34,698 bases of DNA from a virus, in IMG/VR virus record IMGVR_UViG_3300009151_000211, positions 1 through 34,698 of that record; one strand, 5' to 3'. Shown here in pieces: positions 1 through 33,215 of this stretch (the stretch's first letter is position 1; each line of letters starts with the position of its first letter). Made by a program: the position numbers and the translations under genes. The notes below the pieces were generated by a model that was not told where the DNA came from, searched no databases, and saw only the letters and a program-made list of their open reading frames with translations.

Positions 1-272
1 CCCGCCATCCTCTCATCCGTCAATGCGTGCGCGGTGTCCGGGTTGTCTCGCAGCCATTGCCCGATTGCCGATGCCAGATCGGCATAACTGGGAACGATAG
101 TCCGGCGTTTGGCTGTGGCGACAGCGTCCAAGCAACTCCTCGACTGCCAGACTCTATCCGGCACATCGAGCATCTTAACCATGCCCGTGAGAGCCTCAAC
201 CGCCTGCTCCTGGCGATCCGGCTGGACCATTTGAGCAAGCTTCGCGATCCAACGCGCTTTATCCGGTGTCAT
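1..272 (-). CDS. Hypothetical replication-module protein (partial, runs off left edge)
   Basis: The ATG at 272 overlaps the TGA of the upstream replication gene (ATGA), indicating translational coupling. Ninety full codons are visible and the frame is still open at position 1. The protein begins MTPDKARWIAKLAQMVQP, is mostly helical and contains a SYADLASAIGQWLRDN segment. I recognise no catalytic motif. Its place directly after an O-like replication gene suggests a replication accessory role (in lambda, O is followed by the helicase loader P), but nothing in the visible residues shows loader or helicase function. If the window is circular, the frame closes two codons later on sequence at 34692-34698, giving a protein of about 92 residues. 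Confidence 0.72.
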   Translation of the reverse strand, partial: MTPDKARWIAKLAQMVQPDRQEQAVEALTGMVKMLDVPDRVWQSRSCLDAVATAKRRTIVPSYADLASAIGQWLRDNPDTAHALTDERMA

Positions 273-817
273 GCGGTCCACCCTTCGAAGTCGTCTTCTG
301 ATTTTTGAATTACGCGAGCCATGCGCGCTTCGAGGCTGTTGTCCAGCGGTTCATCGGTCCATCGCTCCTGAGTGAGCCATGTCGCCGGATGCGGCAGGAA
401 TTGAACGTCGGCAGGCCACGGCTGGCTCTTAACGGCAGATAAGACGGTGGCCGGATCGGTCTTGGTCAACGCTTTGATCCATGCCTTCCGCGCCGCGCCC
501 TTGCCGATCTTGCGGGGATACAAATCCCAAAACAGGTCAAACTCACGCGCATCTAGGCGCGTGGGGGTTAGAGATAGGATGGATGGGGATAAGGAGGGAG
601 GGGGAGTTATAGTATTAGCTATAGAGGCGGGGGAGGGAACCATCGGGGAAGGAAGGGAAGAGGAAGGGGGCAAAGAAGTGACACCACGTTGATGCCACAG
701 TGACGCCAAAGCTTCCCCTACAATGAAGTTCACAGATCGCCTATCTACCTTTGCAAGCACCTGTATTTGCTGCATAAGTTCCTTCGGAATGCGTATGTTG
801 AAGCGGACCATATCCAT
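269..817 (-). CDS. RHH-domain / phage replication protein O-like
   Basis: This 182-residue protein has two parts. Residues 4-45 (RFNIRIPKELMQQIQVLAK...SVNFIVGEAL) look like an Arc/MetJ ribbon-helix-helix DNA-binding domain. After a Pro/Ser/Thr-rich linker (about 46-90), residues 92-156 (FDLFWDLYPRKIGKGAARKAW ... LPHPATWLTQERW) match the C-terminal region common in phage replication O-type proteins. I chose the ATG at 817 because GAGGAG lies about 8 bases upstream; an upstream ATG at 859 lacks such a site. It is the first gene of a leftward unit, divergent from the early operon. Inferred role: origin-binding initiator that recruits host replication proteins and may repress its own promoter. 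Pairing an RHH domain with this C-terminus is unusual, as these proteins often have winged-helix N-termini. Confidence 0.8.
   Translation of the reverse strand: MDMVRFNIRIPKELMQQIQVLAKVDRRSVNFIVGEALASLWHQRGVTSLPPSSSLPSPMVPSPASIANTITPPPSLSPSILSLTPTRLDAREFDLFWDLYPRKIGKGAARKAWIKALTKTDPATVLSAVKSQPWPADVQFLPHPATWLTQERWTDEPLDNSLEARMARVIQKSEDDFEGWTA
560..706. other. Candidate replication origin inside the O-like gene
   Basis: Within the linker-coding part of the O-like gene the + strand is strikingly purine-rich (about 564-680), with an A+T-rich core at 605-624 (agttatagtattagctata). On one side lie repeated (G/A)TGnC(A/G)C motifs at 679-685, 692-698 and 700-706. In phage lambda the origin also sits inside gene O and has iterons next to a strand-asymmetric A+T-rich stretch. 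The similarity of layout is the only evidence; function is inferred. Confidence 0.35.
677..697. repeat. Imperfect 21-bp repeat, copy 1 (inside O-like gene)
   Basis: This copy matches 836-856 at 16 of 21 positions. The core agtgacacca...tgatgcca contains the palindromic GTGnCAC motif. Possible iteron or operator for the RHH protein. Confidence 0.45.
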
Positions 818-835
818 CGTGTATCTCCTCTTAAT

Positions 836-856
836 GGTGACACCAATATGGTGCCA
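836..856. repeat. Imperfect 21-bp repeat, copy 2 (upstream of O-like gene)
   Basis: The core ggtgacacca...tggtgcca matches 677-697 at 16 of 21 positions and holds two GTGnCAC motifs (838-844, 851-857). A third related motif, ATGCCAC, lies at 873-879. The motifs flank the -10 and -35 of the candidate leftward promoter. Confidence 0.5.
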
Positions 857-873
857 CATTAATGTCAGGTCAA
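845..873 (-). promoter_or_regulatory. Candidate leftward promoter for the replication unit
   Basis: On the minus strand, TTGACC (873-868), a 17-base spacer and CATATT (850-845) resemble sigma70 -35/-10 boxes. The start codon at 817 follows about 28 bases downstream. GTGnCAC repeats overlap the spacer and the start region, an arrangement expected of an autoregulated promoter. Confidence 0.45.
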
Positions 874-887
874 TGCCACTTTTATCC

Positions 888-1349: not shown

Positions 1350-1525
1350 TGACTGCGATAAAAATGAAAACGGGGCAGATGCATCTCGTGTTTTTGACAG
1401 AGTGGGACACTGTTTCCATTTCTAGCTGGGGTGACACGCACGACGTGACACTGCGGCTTCGGCGCGAACAAGCGCAGGAATTGGTTGAACTGCTTAAGAA
1501 GTTTTTGGAGAAAGAGAATGGATGA
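1349..1525 (+). CDS. Small hypothetical early protein (58 aa)
   Basis: The ATG at 1349 follows a GGTGGAGG ribosome site and overlaps the previous stop. The product (MTAIKMKTGQMHLVFLTEWD...) has beta strands followed by a C-terminal helix, LRREQAQELVELLKKFLEK, typical of small phage proteins often found beside recombination genes. An upstream in-frame ATG at 1331 lacks a ribosome site. The TGA at 1523-1525 overlaps the exonuclease start. Confidence 0.68.
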   Translation: MTAIKMKTGQMHLVFLTEWDTVSISSWGDTHDVTLRLRREQAQELVELLKKFLEKENG

Positions 1526-2429
1526 TTTTGGCGAATTGAGCCGGAACTCGGCCTGGTGGTCAACCGACTGCCGCCGGGATGTGAACGGGGAGACCGTTGA
1601 GGTTATCCTGGAGAAACAGAACCTCCGGCGCCGCAATCCGACCTGGGAACTGCCGGAGCGGCAGCAGGAAGCCATGCGGATGGGCTTGTTCATGCAGCCG
1701 CACATTGCGCGGCTGTTTGAGGATGCTCAAAAGATACGAGTGAAGGCGATGGACGATGAGATGACGCATCCGACGGAGCCGTGGATGAAGTCTCATTTCG
1801 ACTTTGTCACTGAAGACAACCTCGCCTTGGTCGAAACCAAAAACTACAACCATGCGGCTTCGGTCAGATTCTCAGAGGAAGGGGAGGATATCCGCATTCC
1901 CCCGGCAGATATGGTGCAGTGCATCCATCAAGCGTGCGTTGCACGGGTTTCTACCGTTTACTTGGCAGTCCTGTTTGGAGGTAACCACTTCCGAAAATTT
2001 AGGATCGTCGTGGACGACGCGATGAAGCAGGCACACATCAAGCACTATGCCACCCTCTGGGCGCATGTGGTGCAAGGCACGCTGCCTGAGCCAAAAACCA
2101 GCAATGACGCTCGTCTTGTTTGGCCACAGGATAACGGTGATTTTGTGCTTGCCTCTAAGCAGTGCGAAACCATCGTAGAGCAATTCAAAGCGGTCAAAAC
2201 CCAGCGCAAGATACTGGAGGATCAAGAGGAACAGATATCGGCTTATCTCCAAACCTCGATGGGCAATGCCAGCGAAATCCGCACGATTGATGGGCGTACT
2301 CTGGTTACGTGGAAGACGGCCAAAGGCACCAAAACGCTTGATACCGCATTGTTCAAATCGACAATGCCTGATACTTATGAAAAGTTCATCATCGAGCGCG
2401 CCGGATCGCGGCGTCTCATTGTCAAATAG
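1518..2429 (+). CDS. YqaJ-type viral recombinase / lambda-exonuclease-like nuclease
   Basis: A 303-residue protein of the PD-(D/E)XK fold. Residues 41-66 (PTWELPERQQEAMRMGLFMQ...) form the N-terminal motif of YqaJ-like exonucleases. The acidic residues expected at the active site are visible: D95 in SHFDFVTED and the E106-T-K108 motif in LALVETKNYN. The C-terminal 110 residues are helical with a coiled-coil-like FKAVKTQRKILEDQEEQI stretch. The start at 1518 is preceded by GGAG and overlaps the prior gene; the longer frame to 1485 is inside that gene. Known role of the family: 5'-3' resection of dsDNA ends to give ssDNA for the annealing protein. The RecT-like gene one position downstream completes the pair. 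Confidence 0.9.
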   Translation: MDDFGELSRNSAWWSTDCRRDVNGETVEVILEKQNLRRRNPTWELPERQQEAMRMGLFMQPHIARLFEDAQKIRVKAMDDEMTHPTEPWMKSHFDFVTEDNLALVETKNYNHAASVRFSEEGEDIRIPPADMVQCIHQACVARVSTVYLAVLFGGNHFRKFRIVVDDAMKQAHIKHYATLWAHVVQGTLPEPKTSNDARLVWPQDNGDFVLASKQCETIVEQFKAVKTQRKILEDQEEQISAYLQTSMGNASEIRTIDGRTLVTWKTAKGTKTLDTALFKSTMPDTYEKFIIERAGSRRLIVK

Positions 2430-2438
2430 GGGACCAAC

Positions 2439-2705
2439 ATGAACGATTGGGAATCAATCTACATTATCGACTGCGATATCCCGGGGCGGGCTAAGAACGC
2501 TCTCGTTTTTGAGTTTGGCGAGGCGGTCACACTGGGAGACATCAAGGACATGCCTCTGGGCCACTTTCGGAACATGCCGGGCGTTGGTCCCGCTGCGGTG
2601 CAGAATATCGTTGCGGCCATGACGAACGCCCTGAAAGGCACTAGGCCAAAAGCTTCAGTGAGCTTGATTGAGGCTGCTATGGAGAAGGTGGACACCAATG
2701 AGTAG
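2439..2705 (+). CDS. Small helix-hairpin-helix protein (RpoA-CTD-like)
   Basis: An 88-residue protein with ATG at 2439 behind AGGGGAC. Residues about 31-60 (VTLGDIKDMPLGHFRNMPGVGPAAVQNIVAA, described here in part) resemble the HhH fold of the RNA polymerase alpha C-terminal domain and related DNA-binding modules: a leading helix, then a PGVG hairpin and a helix. It sits between the exonuclease and the annealing protein, so a DNA-binding recombination accessory is likely; contact with host transcription machinery is an alternative. The stop overlaps the next start by 8 bases. Confidence 0.75.
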   Translation: MNDWESIYIIDCDIPGRAKNALVFEFGEAVTLGDIKDMPLGHFRNMPGVGPAAVQNIVAAMTNALKGTRPKASVSLIEAAMEKVDTNE

Positions 2706-3435
2706 CGCGCTTATTCCCGTTTCAGAAATGAAGCTGATGGCAATTGCCGTGGCCAAGAGCGGGCTCTTCGGGATCAAAACCGAGGATCAGGCTCTGGCTT
2801 TGATGCTCATCGCTCAGGGCGAGGGGCTGCACCCGGCAATCGCTGCCAGGGACTACCACGTCATCCAAGGCCGACCGACTCTCAAGGCTGACGCGATGCT
2901 CGCACGCTTCCAAGCTGCTGGCGGGCGAGTTGAGTGGCGCACATATACGGATGAACAGGTCACAGCCGTGTTCACGCATGCTCAGGGCGGCAGCCTAGAG
3001 CTTACGTGGACCATGAAACAGGCCAAGGCTATCGGGCTCGCCGGCAAGGATAACTGGCTTAAATACCCACGCGCCATGTTGCGGTCGCGCTGCGTGTCAG
3101 AGGGCATCAGAACGGTGTATCCGGGCTGCGTTGTCGGCACCTATACAGAGGAGGAGGTTGAGGCGTTTACGTCGCCCGCGCCTGCTGCTCCGCCGATGCC
3201 GTCACTGGAACCGCCCGATGGGGGCATCCCGCTCTATCTGCCTAACGGCAGGCTACACGCAAGGCACGATGGGCAACCCGAATGGGCGGAAAGCTACAAC
3301 GAGTTGGTAGATCGCATACAAGTCTCGGTGAAAATGTCGCAGGACAACAAATACACCACCCTCCAGGACCTCGCTATCGCCAATAAAGAGGTGATCAACG
3401 AACTGGCTCCCGAATATTGCTCACTGTTGAAGTAG
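2698..3435 (+). CDS. RecT-family ssDNA annealing protein
   Basis: A 245-residue protein. Residues about 45-85 (GLHPAIAARDYHVIQGRPTL then KADAMLARFQAAGG) and 120-145 (NWLKYPRAMLRSRCVSEGIR) are hallmark stretches of RecT-like recombinases. A Pro-rich linker (FTSPAPAAPPMPSLEPPDGG) leads to a variable C-terminus. The start at 2698 is chosen because it gives MSSALIPVSEM and lies behind GGAGAAGGTGG; a further upstream ATG at 2668 lies deep in the previous gene. Known family function: binds ssDNA and anneals complementary strands. Together with the YqaJ exonuclease it forms a Red/RecET-like system, probably used for concatemer formation. Confidence 0.9.
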   Translation: MSSALIPVSEMKLMAIAVAKSGLFGIKTEDQALALMLIAQGEGLHPAIAARDYHVIQGRPTLKADAMLARFQAAGGRVEWRTYTDEQVTAVFTHAQGGSLELTWTMKQAKAIGLAGKDNWLKYPRAMLRSRCVSEGIRTVYPGCVVGTYTEEEVEAFTSPAPAAPPMPSLEPPDGGIPLYLPNGRLHARHDGQPEWAESYNELVDRIQVSVKMSQDNKYTTLQDLAIANKEVINELAPEYCSLLK

Positions 3436-3444
3436 GAACACGTC

Positions 3445-3720
3445 ATGCAACTCAAAAATCCGCCGCAGGTTGGCGCTGGCATTGCCTTCAAGGTCAAGGA
3501 AAAGAAGCACGAGAAGGCACCCGATTGGGATGCCGTACTTGTGCTGGATGATGATTACAAGGCTGGCCAGATGATCAAGATCGCCGCATGGAACCGGCAA
3601 GGTGCCGGAGGCATGTTCCTGAGCCTCAAGATCGACAACTTCAAACCCAAGGCAAAGCCTGACGCTGAAACGTATAAGCCCAAAGAGATTAGCGCACTTG
3701 GCGACGACGTGCCGTTCTGA
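3445..3720 (+). CDS. SSB-like / DUF736-like small protein with acidic DDVPF tail
   Basis: A 91-residue protein. The body (KVKEKKHEKAPDWDAVLVLDD...IKIAAWNRQGAGGMFLSLKID) looks like a compact beta-barrel similar to DUF736 proteins (APDW...AAW...LSLK). The last residues are LGDDVPF, almost the same as the C-terminal tip DDDIPF with which bacterial SSB recruits partner enzymes. Position between RecT-like and resolvase genes supports an ssDNA-binding role. DUF736 similarity is from memory of the family pattern; SSB function is inferred. The TGA overlaps the next ATG. Confidence 0.75.
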   Translation: MQLKNPPQVGAGIAFKVKEKKHEKAPDWDAVLVLDDDYKAGQMIKIAAWNRQGAGGMFLSLKIDNFKPKAKPDAETYKPKEISALGDDVPF

Positions 3721-4052
3721 TGGGCAAATCCCAGCGCACTAAAGGGGCTACTTACGAGCGTGACATCGTGCATGTCCTTAAGGATGCGCTGGGGATCGAC
3801 GTAGAACGCAACCTAAGTCAAACACGGGATGGCGGGGGAGACGTAGATCTCCCCGGCTATCTGGTGGAGTGTAAACGCCGGGCGGGCATTGCTGTGTATG
3901 AGTGGCTGGACCAAGCCACACGCGCCGCCAAGCCCGATCAGAAGCCTTTGGTGATAGCCAGGGCTGACCGGCGAGAAAATATCATCATCATGCGGTTGGA
4001 CGACTTCCTGCCGTTGCTCAAGGGGACACAACATGCCGAAACCACCGACTAA
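3720..4052 (+). CDS. Holliday-junction resolvase-like (Hjc/PD-(D/E)XK) nuclease
   Basis: A 110-residue protein with the arrangement of archaeal-type Hjc resolvases: KGATYERDIV with E13, GGGDVDLPG with D41, then LVECKRR with E50-x-K52. These four residues form the expected metal-binding active site. The family cleaves four-way or branched DNA. In this operon it would resolve recombination intermediates before packaging. It starts on the TGATG overlap with the SSB-like gene and its end overlaps the glycosyltransferase start by 20 bases. Confidence 0.85.
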   Translation: MGKSQRTKGATYERDIVHVLKDALGIDVERNLSQTRDGGGDVDLPGYLVECKRRAGIAVYEWLDQATRAAKPDQKPLVIARADRRENIIIMRLDDFLPLLKGTQHAETTD

Positions 4053-31053: not shown

Positions 31054-31455
31054 TCAGTCCCCTTTTTTGCTGTTGAATTGTTGGTCTAGCCTTTGGCGTG
31101 AGTAATCCGCTCTGTTGCGAATGCCAACATCCATTTTCACTTGCCCATCAACCACCTGAAGTCCTAGGTGGCGATACATGCGAGGCTTTGGAACGCGGCG
31201 GTATTCGGTAAAGCGGGTGTTATACATACCCTGCATCACCGCGATCTCACCGTCTTCCCATTGCTTCAAAGCCCGGCTAACTCGGATCTGAGTCATTTCC
31301 GATATCGGAAGAGTCTTTGAGATAAAGTTCTTCTTGAACAGATCCTCGGTGATCCCAGCCACGTCGGCAAACAACGCCGCCGAAATACCGCGCTTCTTGT
31401 CTGCAAGAAACCGATCGATCCGTTCCATCAAAACCTTTTTGGGTAAGACGCTCAT
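31054..31455 (-). CDS. Hypothetical protein between TerL and portal (133 aa)
   Basis: Helical N-terminus (VLMERIDRFLADKKRGISAA, LFADVAGITEDLFKKNFI) that resembles an HTH/XRE-like fold, then EYRRVPKPRMYRHLGLQVV. Possibly DNA-binding or terminase-associated. ATG 31455 overlaps the TerL stop (TGATG). Confidence 0.7.
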   Translation of the reverse strand: MSVLPKKVLMERIDRFLADKKRGISAALFADVAGITEDLFKKNFISKTLPISEMTQIRVSRALKQWEDGEIAVMQGMYNTRFTEYRRVPKPRMYRHLGLQVVDGQVKMDVGIRNRADYSRQRLDQQFNSKKGD

Positions 31456-33215
31456 CAGGTGCCGTACAATCCAATGCCTTTGAGATAGTCTGATACGTTC
31501 TTCCCAACGCTCAATTGCTCAGGAGTGCTATTCTCTTGTGCCTTGCTAATGGCACGGCTCAGCTTCATCGCCACCAACCGGGGCTGCACTTGCTCTGCAT
31601 AAGCCGCTGCGGCCAACGCAGCACCAATCACCCGGTCATCCTTGCCCCGCCCGCCAGCCTCAATGGAAGCGCCATCACGCCGGATGGTCTTCATCTCGTC
31701 AATCAGATCCTGGCTGCAAACTCGCATCATGCCTCTCTCAAAATAATCCTTGAGATAACTCATCATCCGCTCTTTAGACGACACCGTAGTTACCCAACCC
31801 ATAGCATTGCTAGGCCCACTCAGCGTGTCGTTCTTGCGCCAAATGTAGTTTGTCATGTGGCCAAGCACATCCATTAAATCTTTGCCGTGTTGCCCGCCCA
31901 TGCTGACCGCTTGCCTACGCAAGTTGCGTAGTTCGTTGATGACGGCCTGTCCTGGCCCATTCACCTCAAGGTTCAATGTCGAGTTCTTATACGCACCTGC
32001 AAGATGGCTAATGACCCAAGCAAACTGGTAGGTGTTCATCTCGCTCGTCGCAAACTCAGCAACCTGCTCCATGCCGTCTGAATAACAACGCCATACGCTG
32101 ATGCAGAACCTATCGGCCCAATCACTGGACCCATACGCCGGATCGGCCCCGATGACGTAATACGCCGTGTCTATGGGCTGCTCCCAGATCCTGAGCGTAG
32201 CCAATTTGTCTGATGAACGGATAACCTCAGTGTCTGCAAAATGGGCGCCCATCACGTAACGGTAAACCTCGGGCAGCATCTTCTTTGCGTCCTTCATCGC
32301 ATCGGTGCAACGTGCGTTTGAAAAGAACGAACTGCCGGTCATGATGAAGGCGTAGTCTTCAGTCGGCGGAAACTCTTGATACATCAACGACTCATCGCGG
32401 ATTCCCTCAGCTAATTTCCAACGCCACCAAGCCATCTGACGCGAATTGATCTCCACGCCGTAAAGCTTCTTAATGTCGCGGACCCACTCCTTCTCTTCGC
32501 CGGTCAGTCTACCATCCCAATATACCTTGTAAACCGAAGTGTCTGCTTCGACAGAGTAGAACTGATTCCGCCACCAGCCACAAAAAATCGCCTTTTGAGT
32601 TCGCGCCCTTTTGGCCGTGACATACATATCATGGAACATGTTGAAGCCCCGCGCCGTGCTCTCAAACATATACAGCCGGTCGGGGTTGGTTTCTGCCAAC
32701 GAAGCCAGCAATGACGCCAAACCCTCTTCATCGCCCCATGAACTCGTTTCCGTCCCGTGCAGGTATGTAATAGCCTTACCACGCCCCAAAGTGCCTTTGG
32801 CCCTCAAGCCAGCCACCTGATAAAACAGACGACTGCGGTTCTTCAGCACCATCTGGTTCCGGTTGTGGCTATCAACAGGCATCTTCCATTCACGTGGCAA
32901 ATGCTCGTGATACATGCCCAAGGTGCTGCGGAACATTTCACGGTTTTCTTCGGTGTCAGTCACCAAAGTTGCCCCCAAACCAGGGTGCGTAAACACCCAG
33001 TAAAGGTCCAACGCCAAGCTGATGGTCGTGATGCCCTGCTGACGCCCTTTCAAGATCACAAAGTGATGAATATCATCCTCAAGACCCTTCTGCATCTCCT
33101 CCATCACATAAGTCTGAGTGCCAAGCAAAGTGCCTAGCTTCTTCAAACCCTGCTCTTTGGTCTCGATCTGAAGCTCAGCACAGAACTTGTAGAACTTCTT
33201 GATGTCGAATTTCAT
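31455..33215 (-). CDS. terL: Terminase large subunit
   Basis: A 586-residue protein. VILKGRQQGITT (residues 53-64) is the Walker A motif; AITYLHGTETSSWGD (148-162) is the Walker B region; QEFPPTEDYAF (280-290) is a typical TerL block; YVIGADPAYGSSDWADRF (353-370) with D358 and a late GRGKDDRVIGAALAAAAYA form the RNase-H-like nuclease site. It packages DNA by ATP hydrolysis and cuts concatemers. The ATG 33215 has only a weak site (GTGAGC). Confidence 0.93.
   Translation of the reverse strand: MKFDIKKFYKFCAELQIETKEQGLKKLGTLLGTQTYVMEEMQKGLEDDIHHFVILKGRQQGITTISLALDLYWVFTHPGLGATLVTDTEENREMFRSTLGMYHEHLPREWKMPVDSHNRNQMVLKNRSRLFYQVAGLRAKGTLGRGKAITYLHGTETSSWGDEEGLASLLASLAETNPDRLYMFESTARGFNMFHDMYVTAKRARTQKAIFCGWWRNQFYSVEADTSVYKVYWDGRLTGEEKEWVRDIKKLYGVEINSRQMAWWRWKLAEGIRDESLMYQEFPPTEDYAFIMTGSSFFSNARCTDAMKDAKKMLPEVYRYVMGAHFADTEVIRSSDKLATLRIWEQPIDTAYYVIGADPAYGSSDWADRFCISVWRCYSDGMEQVAEFATSEMNTYQFAWVISHLAGAYKNSTLNLEVNGPGQAVINELRNLRRQAVSMGGQHGKDLMDVLGHMTNYIWRKNDTLSGPSNAMGWVTTVSSKERMMSYLKDYFERGMMRVCSQDLIDEMKTIRRDGASIEAGGRGKDDRVIGAALAAAAYAEQVQPRLVAMKLSRAISKAQENSTPEQLSVGKNVSDYLKGIGLYGT

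Follow-up and report, generated by a model that had tools for sequence, protein, structure and literature searches.

The window (the whole stretch of DNA that was analysed; 34,698 bp) comprised positions 1 to 34,698 of the IMG/VR virus record IMGVR_UViG_3300009151_000211, a freshwater phage, and no terminal repeats longer than 10 bp were found anywhere in it. Fourteen features of the initiator locus are considered here:

3-281, minus strand: gene directly downstream of the initiator, running off the window; it has an orthologue in L258
269-817, minus strand: initiator gene, 182 aa, encoding a ribbon-helix-helix (RHH) domain, a Pro/Ser linker and an FW-YP C-terminal domain
347-553, minus strand: C-terminal FW-YP...TWLNQxRW domain, residues 89-157 (phrog_270, 9327 and 9474; alignment)
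554-688, minus strand: linker-coding DNA, Pro/Ser-rich, residues about 44-88 (translation, low pLDDT)
582-681, plus strand: 100-bp stretch with the strongest purine bias in the window, 82% purine
590-643, minus strand: conserved core, consisting of ATGGTT, a C-tract, an A+T stretch and CCCTCCCTCCTTA; candidate unwinding or helicase-loading site
605-624, unstranded: least stable 20 bp of the window (nearest-neighbour energy profile)
678-698, unstranded: in-gene dyad GTGACACCACGTTGATGCCAC, 21 bp; candidate RHH site or iteron pair
689-817, minus strand: Arc-like RHH DNA-binding domain, residues 1-43
700-706, plus strand: third, weaker half-site GTGACGC (read from the sequence and the repeat families)
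837-857, unstranded: promoter dyad GTGACACCAATATGGTGCCAC, candidate RHH operator, overlapping the predicted promoter
845-873, minus strand: predicted promoter of the initiator gene (TTGACC, 17 bp, CATATT)
873-879, plus strand: half-site ATGCCAC, upstream of the promoter
1431-1451, unstranded: third 14-bp-spaced pair, GTGACACGCACGACGTGACAC, within a small early gene

The initiator gene started with ATG at 817 and was preceded by a AAGAGGAG-type ribosome site. In profile searches, the gene at 3-281 and its L258 orthologue matched no family above cut-off, and no lambda P-like (helicase-loader) gene was recognised among the initiator's neighbours. Among the window proteins scanned, no other initiator was recognised. 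Positions 1485-4052 formed a recombination module with profile matches to a YqaJ/RecE-like exonuclease, a RecT-like protein, an SSB-like protein and a RusA-like resolvase. The small early genes at 951-1152 and 1343-1525 appeared by eye to be paralogues, and the pair at 1431-1451 sat within the second of them. The large terminase (31455-33215) had at least 599 viral relatives among the matches listed (599 of 600 pattern matches were confirmed); these represent a large phage group whose members include two circular genomes from Manatee Spring.

The RHH domain matched PF03869 at 22.0 bits against a cut-off of 20.4. Its closest solved sequences were those of Arc repressor, at an E value (0.33) that is not significant alone. 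The AlphaFold2 model of the whole protein (mean pLDDT 77, pTM 0.43) contained the two RHH helices at residues 12-24 and 26-43; the strand expected of an RHH domain was not assigned in this monomer model. In RHH proteins this strand forms in the dimer. The linker had a pLDDT of about 55-61. The C-terminal domain was helical and confidently modelled, with ten-residue pLDDT means of 77-96 over residues 91-160, and residues 89-159 matched phrog_270 at E 1.1e-17. The preliminary description of this DNA had called the gene O-like, which was borne out through this C-terminal domain, and its low-complexity Pro/Ser linker was confirmed; the DNA-binding part differs from that of lambda O, being an RHH domain in place of a winged helix. 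By sequence, no solved relative of the C-terminal domain was found. Foldseek returned no significant match and a second structural look gave only Z 2.4 and 2.0, both for a structure taken from the full-length model rather than predicted alone. In annotated phages, genes for FW-YP-domain initiators adjoined DnaB-like helicase or helicase-loader genes, and the domain is probably the replisome-recruiting part of the initiator. Searched as a single protein against viral contigs the window protein had no relative, and a full-length relative was absent from the phages and plasmids searched; when the RHH part by itself was run against phages with tblastn, the matches were all weak and Arc/Mnt-like.

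The motif RTGNCAC occurred at 678 and 692 within the gene and recurred upstream at 837, 851 and 873. These five sites in 660-900 compare with 0.32 expected, while over the whole window the motif was mildly enriched (55 versus 42 expected). Pairs exactly 14 bp apart were found three times in the window (678, 837, 1431) and nowhere else in it, against 0.06 expected per given spacing (P 3.6e-5 before correcting for the 23 spacings examined). The in-gene dyad was the best other match to the promoter dyad in the window, agreeing at 17 of 21 positions, a value reached in 1 of 60 shuffled windows. The promoter dyad was self-complementary at 16 of 21 positions (27 of 34678 window 21-mers do as well or better) and lay over the sole promoter-like site found in 500-1200. 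The pair at 1431-1451, considered as a possible further operator, agreed with the promoter dyad at 14 of 21 positions, no better than shuffles. The general repeat test was not significant for the window's own linker (p 0.16; 0.17 in another run). The repeated motifs noted earlier are present, as RTGNCAC at 678 and 692 and the weaker GTGACGC at 700, but a true array was not confirmed.

After the 100-mer at 582-681, the next-highest in the window was 67% purine. Among 300 synonymous recodings of the linker protein using the window's codon usage, the maximum was 77% and none (0/300) reached 82%, so the purine bias is due to codon choice, beyond what Pro and Ser alone impose. The long purine-rich strand of the preliminary description was the window's top 100-mer, and the unwinding-energy profile proposed there placed the window minimum at 605-624. 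Its A+T-rich core held in terms of this stability minimum but was short: the linker stretch was 56% GC overall, and its best A+T 20-mer (75%) was exceeded elsewhere in the window by plain A+T content. The G4Hunter maximum of the window at the 100-bp scale (1.43) also fell in the linker stretch. A G-quadruplex role was rejected, since another site in the window scores higher at 25 bp, and the value is retained as a property alone. Cumulative GC skew, also proposed as a check, had its minimum at the window's right end, which would be adjacent to the locus if the ends join; the curve followed gene direction and no terminal repeat exceeded 10 bp, so skew decides nothing on the origin.

Relatives were defined as genes sharing the C-terminal domain and were gathered from phages, viral contigs and bacterial genomes. 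The repeat test, based on synonymous-codon shuffling, was applied to 142 distinct genes, of which 16 were omitted from the linker part of the test (too short or holding N), leaving 126 there. Linker DNA was periodic beyond what the protein requires (p<=0.05) in 69 of these 126 initiators. The corresponding figures were 8/141 for C-terminal regions, 10/82 for N-terminal regions and 8/200 for other ORFs, and lambda O gave a positive result (p 0.01) at the position of its iterons. Clear arrays had units of 11 bp (L087) or 10 bp (L084 and L099), and the strong iteron arrays of relatives occupied the same place in the gene, the linker DNA. In-gene repeats are common in the FW-YP initiator family, and the window, with its few repeats, is a weak representative of it. 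The N-terminal parts of relatives varied, being DUF1376, winged-helix-like or short helical (the latter two by eye). Repeat sequences differed among phages with different N-terminal parts, and GTGAC-type repeats also accompanied N-terminal parts other than RHH. In L356, L358, L371, L376, L379 and others, a short N-terminal helix plus a strongly basic region accompanied GACA-centred repeats (variants GGGACA, GCGACA, TGGACA and CGTGAC); this is possibly an undescribed DNA-binding domain.

Directly after the repeats lay a C-rich ATGGTT/AT/CCTCCTTA core common to phages that differ in N-terminal domains, repeats and C-terminal domains. In the window it was situated between the RHH-coding and C-terminal-domain-coding DNA, with the dyad where the RHH-coding part ends. 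The window's linker DNA (150 bp before the C-terminal domain) was compared with 131 targets picked by C-terminal domain alone, which makes for a fair test. The four best of the 131 were L099 (score 66), L107 (64), L104 (53) and L060 (53), against maxima over 200 dinucleotide shuffles of 41, 52, 44 and 44, respectively; of the 131, the 12 top-scoring targets were the ones shuffled. ATGGTT was invariant among the matching linker DNAs. Linker protein similarity between the window and these DNA-matching relatives did not exceed shuffles, and aligned columns were in the same frame in 44 of 74 (L060), 25 of 83 (L099) and 37 of 91 (L107). The suggestion that the DNA and not the linker protein was under selection is thereby supported. 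The related expectation, that repeats stay conserved while the linker protein varies, applied to the purine/pyrimidine core but not to the repeat sequences.

A core pattern, partly written from the window's own sequence, matched 27 viral stretches, in 24 of which the core immediately followed repeats within an initiator-like reading frame; matches L383, L387 and L388 were unrelated. Core-bearing genes were often close kin, and these counts are not of independent events. In the recoding control, core similarity was reached by 0 of 300 recodings for 25 of 26 targets and by 1 of 300 for the remaining one, all 26 targets carrying part of the core pattern and so matching by construction. Codon-order shuffles that keep the same codons reached it in 0 to 48 of 300 cases. 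Among 30 core genes including the window, the ATG of the core was in frame in three (the window, L360 and L363) and shifted in 27. The C-terminal domains of these 30 genes were FW-YP (15), DW-ATW-NW (nine), a third type (three) or unassigned (three). DW-ATW-NW domains occurred in L360, L363, L366, L370, L375, L376, L379, L382 and L385 and the third type in L371, L384 and L389, and genes of both types shared related short N-terminal parts, repeats and the core.

A wider pattern added L394 and L399, in which a winged-helix-like N-terminal part was accompanied by other repeats and the core was in frame; the remaining nine new loci were unrelated. An earlier, narrower pattern had matched 15 stretches: 12 in initiator genes, two outside one (L357 and L364) and one unrelated (L367). 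In L364 a small gene is closely followed by three short repeats and then the core; this gene matched phrog_13890 and had a weak match to a family that the RHH part of the window matches as well. L364:2617-2940 and L357 shared an order of small RHH-like gene, GCGACCGCTAC repeats and a core copy outside any initiator gene. A gene read by us as J-domain-like was near (L364:1891-2397). Bacterial genomes matching the core pattern numbered 0/10, 0/385 and 0/369 in the three sets searched, and one 181-bp stretch of L386 had no phage match by blastn. The titles and abstracts listed in literature searches yielded no description of an RHH-type phage initiator or of the core, which is not proof of absence.

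The window's exonuclease was 80% identical to that of L258, and the initiator was flanked by matches to L258 at window positions 34-162 and 923-1139. With one relative matching both flanks, two separate joins would have to be assumed for an assembly chimera. In L258, RHH is encoded by a gene of its own, and the initiator gene that follows carries DUF1376; L087 and L011 have this order too. Unlike the separate small RHH protein of L258 and L087, the RHH domain of the window was in one reading frame with the initiator, which is therefore apparently a fusion. In a regular-expression scan of 146 distinct genes, only the window had RHH fused to the FW-YP C-terminal domain, so co-variation of RHH and site is a single case. 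Sequence comparison suggests that the window gene is a replacement in which RHH became fused to a linker-core-C-terminal part. Recombination probably joined an RHH autoregulator gene to a linker-origin and C-terminal part, displacing the DUF1376 domain kept by close relatives.

The domains, the sites, the conserved core and the mosaic are present in the window, and the stretch is likely (probability about 0.72) a replication origin of the lambda type, lying inside the initiator gene and served by an RHH-type initiator. The lambda-like logic attributed earlier to this gene is upheld in the layout of repeats, strand-asymmetric stretch and recruiting domain. For the window's own protein and DNA, we infer binding, unwinding, recruitment, autorepression and origin activity in the following form. 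The sites at 678-706 (dyad plus half-site) would be occupied by RHH dimers in the way that lambda iterons are by O dimers, and the adjoining C-rich/AT core (590-643), with nearly all purines on one strand, would open. The C-terminal FW-YP domain would then bring the replicative helicase, or a loader for it, onto the captured strand. Binding of the RHH domain to the matching dyad at 837-857, over the gene's own promoter, would also limit initiator synthesis.

It is unlikely that the RHH part is merely a transcriptional autorepressor, with the in-gene dyad as a second operator (by looping or as a roadblock) and the origin elsewhere. Overlap of a dyad with the predicted promoter, the separate RHH gene upstream of the initiator in close relatives, and the known action of CopG-type repressors (in passages of PMC7848731) are all in keeping with repression. 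Repression does not account for the conserved C-rich core, for its recurrence after repeats in numerous phages, or for a purine bias that exceeds what the protein dictates. Quite improbable is a brake of the kind described, in passages of PMC7848731, for PrpA, an RHH antitoxin of plasmid pMBL6842 that binds its own promoter and the origin iterons through a shared motif. The two-place pattern matches the window, and RHH would autoregulate its promoter and occupy the origin repeats while another protein initiates; however, the window's RHH is covalently joined to the initiator's C-terminal domain, and the scanned proteins offered no other initiator. Control at the RNA level, for instance a Rho-loading (rut) site in the linker mRNA with no DNA origin, is highly improbable. 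The coding strand was C-rich and G-poor over about 100 nt, and the hairpin formed by the in-gene dyad also scored as terminator-like, but the core stood behind repeats in 24 of 27 pattern matches and, in L364, outside an initiator gene. Rut sites need no fixed core. Chance, with pyrimidine codons in a low-complexity Pro/Ser linker and repeats that arose by accident, would accommodate the non-significant repeat test (p 0.16) and the part of core similarity retained by codon-order shuffles, and has only a very slight probability in view of the recoding control and the DNA match to genes picked by C-terminal domain alone.

Within the reading as an in-gene origin, a more specific proposal is tentative and has, for its two halves jointly, somewhat less than an even chance. 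An RHH repressor domain may have become an origin-recognition part, one type of dyad both silencing the promoter and starting replication, and the core may be a portable origin part. Such a core would work with RHH, short helix-plus-basic and winged-helix-like N-terminal parts and with C-terminal domains of several kinds; its reading frame varies, and one copy lies outside an initiator, beside a stand-alone RHH-like gene. The dyad site could be inherited and not RHH-specific, because GTGAC-type repeats accompany other N-terminal parts. If the origin reading is true, repeats in linker DNA plus the shared core would point to the origins of many uncultured phages from sequence alone. Origins and DNA-binding domains would be exchangeable together, since the sites lie in the gene beside the domain, and the window would be a case of a repressor domain turned initiator domain. 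The retention of the core through reading-frame shifts raises the question of which protein or DNA property it serves.

Lambda ori resembles the window's locus in lying midway along an initiator gene (O), in the order of repeats and then a low-stability, strand-asymmetric stretch, and in the use of the initiator's other end for replisome recruitment, which is probable in the window. The DNA-binding domain of lambda O is a winged helix, and that of the window is RHH. Lambda has four 18-bp iterons, whereas the window has one dyad and a half-site, a C-rich core with a short A+T stretch, and no recognised P gene. The lambda order of binding sites, an easily opened strand-asymmetric stretch and a recruiting domain is described in passages of PMC5043065 and PMC7466680. 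The former places nearly every purine of the A+T region on one strand and has O dimers binding inverted repeats; the latter cites that two iterons plus the A+T region suffice for unwinding. For mycobacteriophage repA, an in-gene origin was suggested and repeats were not found, according to a passage of PMC7157519. The PLE origin of a Vibrio phage satellite, served by RepA, differs in being intergenic and in its RepA_N domain. The CopG-RepB operon of plasmid pMV158, in passages of PMC7848731, couples an RHH autoregulator to an initiator, as do L258 and L087; CopG is a separate promoter repressor, whereas the window's RHH lies within the initiator and has a matching site also in the candidate origin. 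For PrpA, a single motif occurs both at its promoter and among the origin iterons, a pattern resembling that of the window, but PrpA is unfused and competes with the initiator as a brake, while the RHH domain of the window is fused to the initiator.
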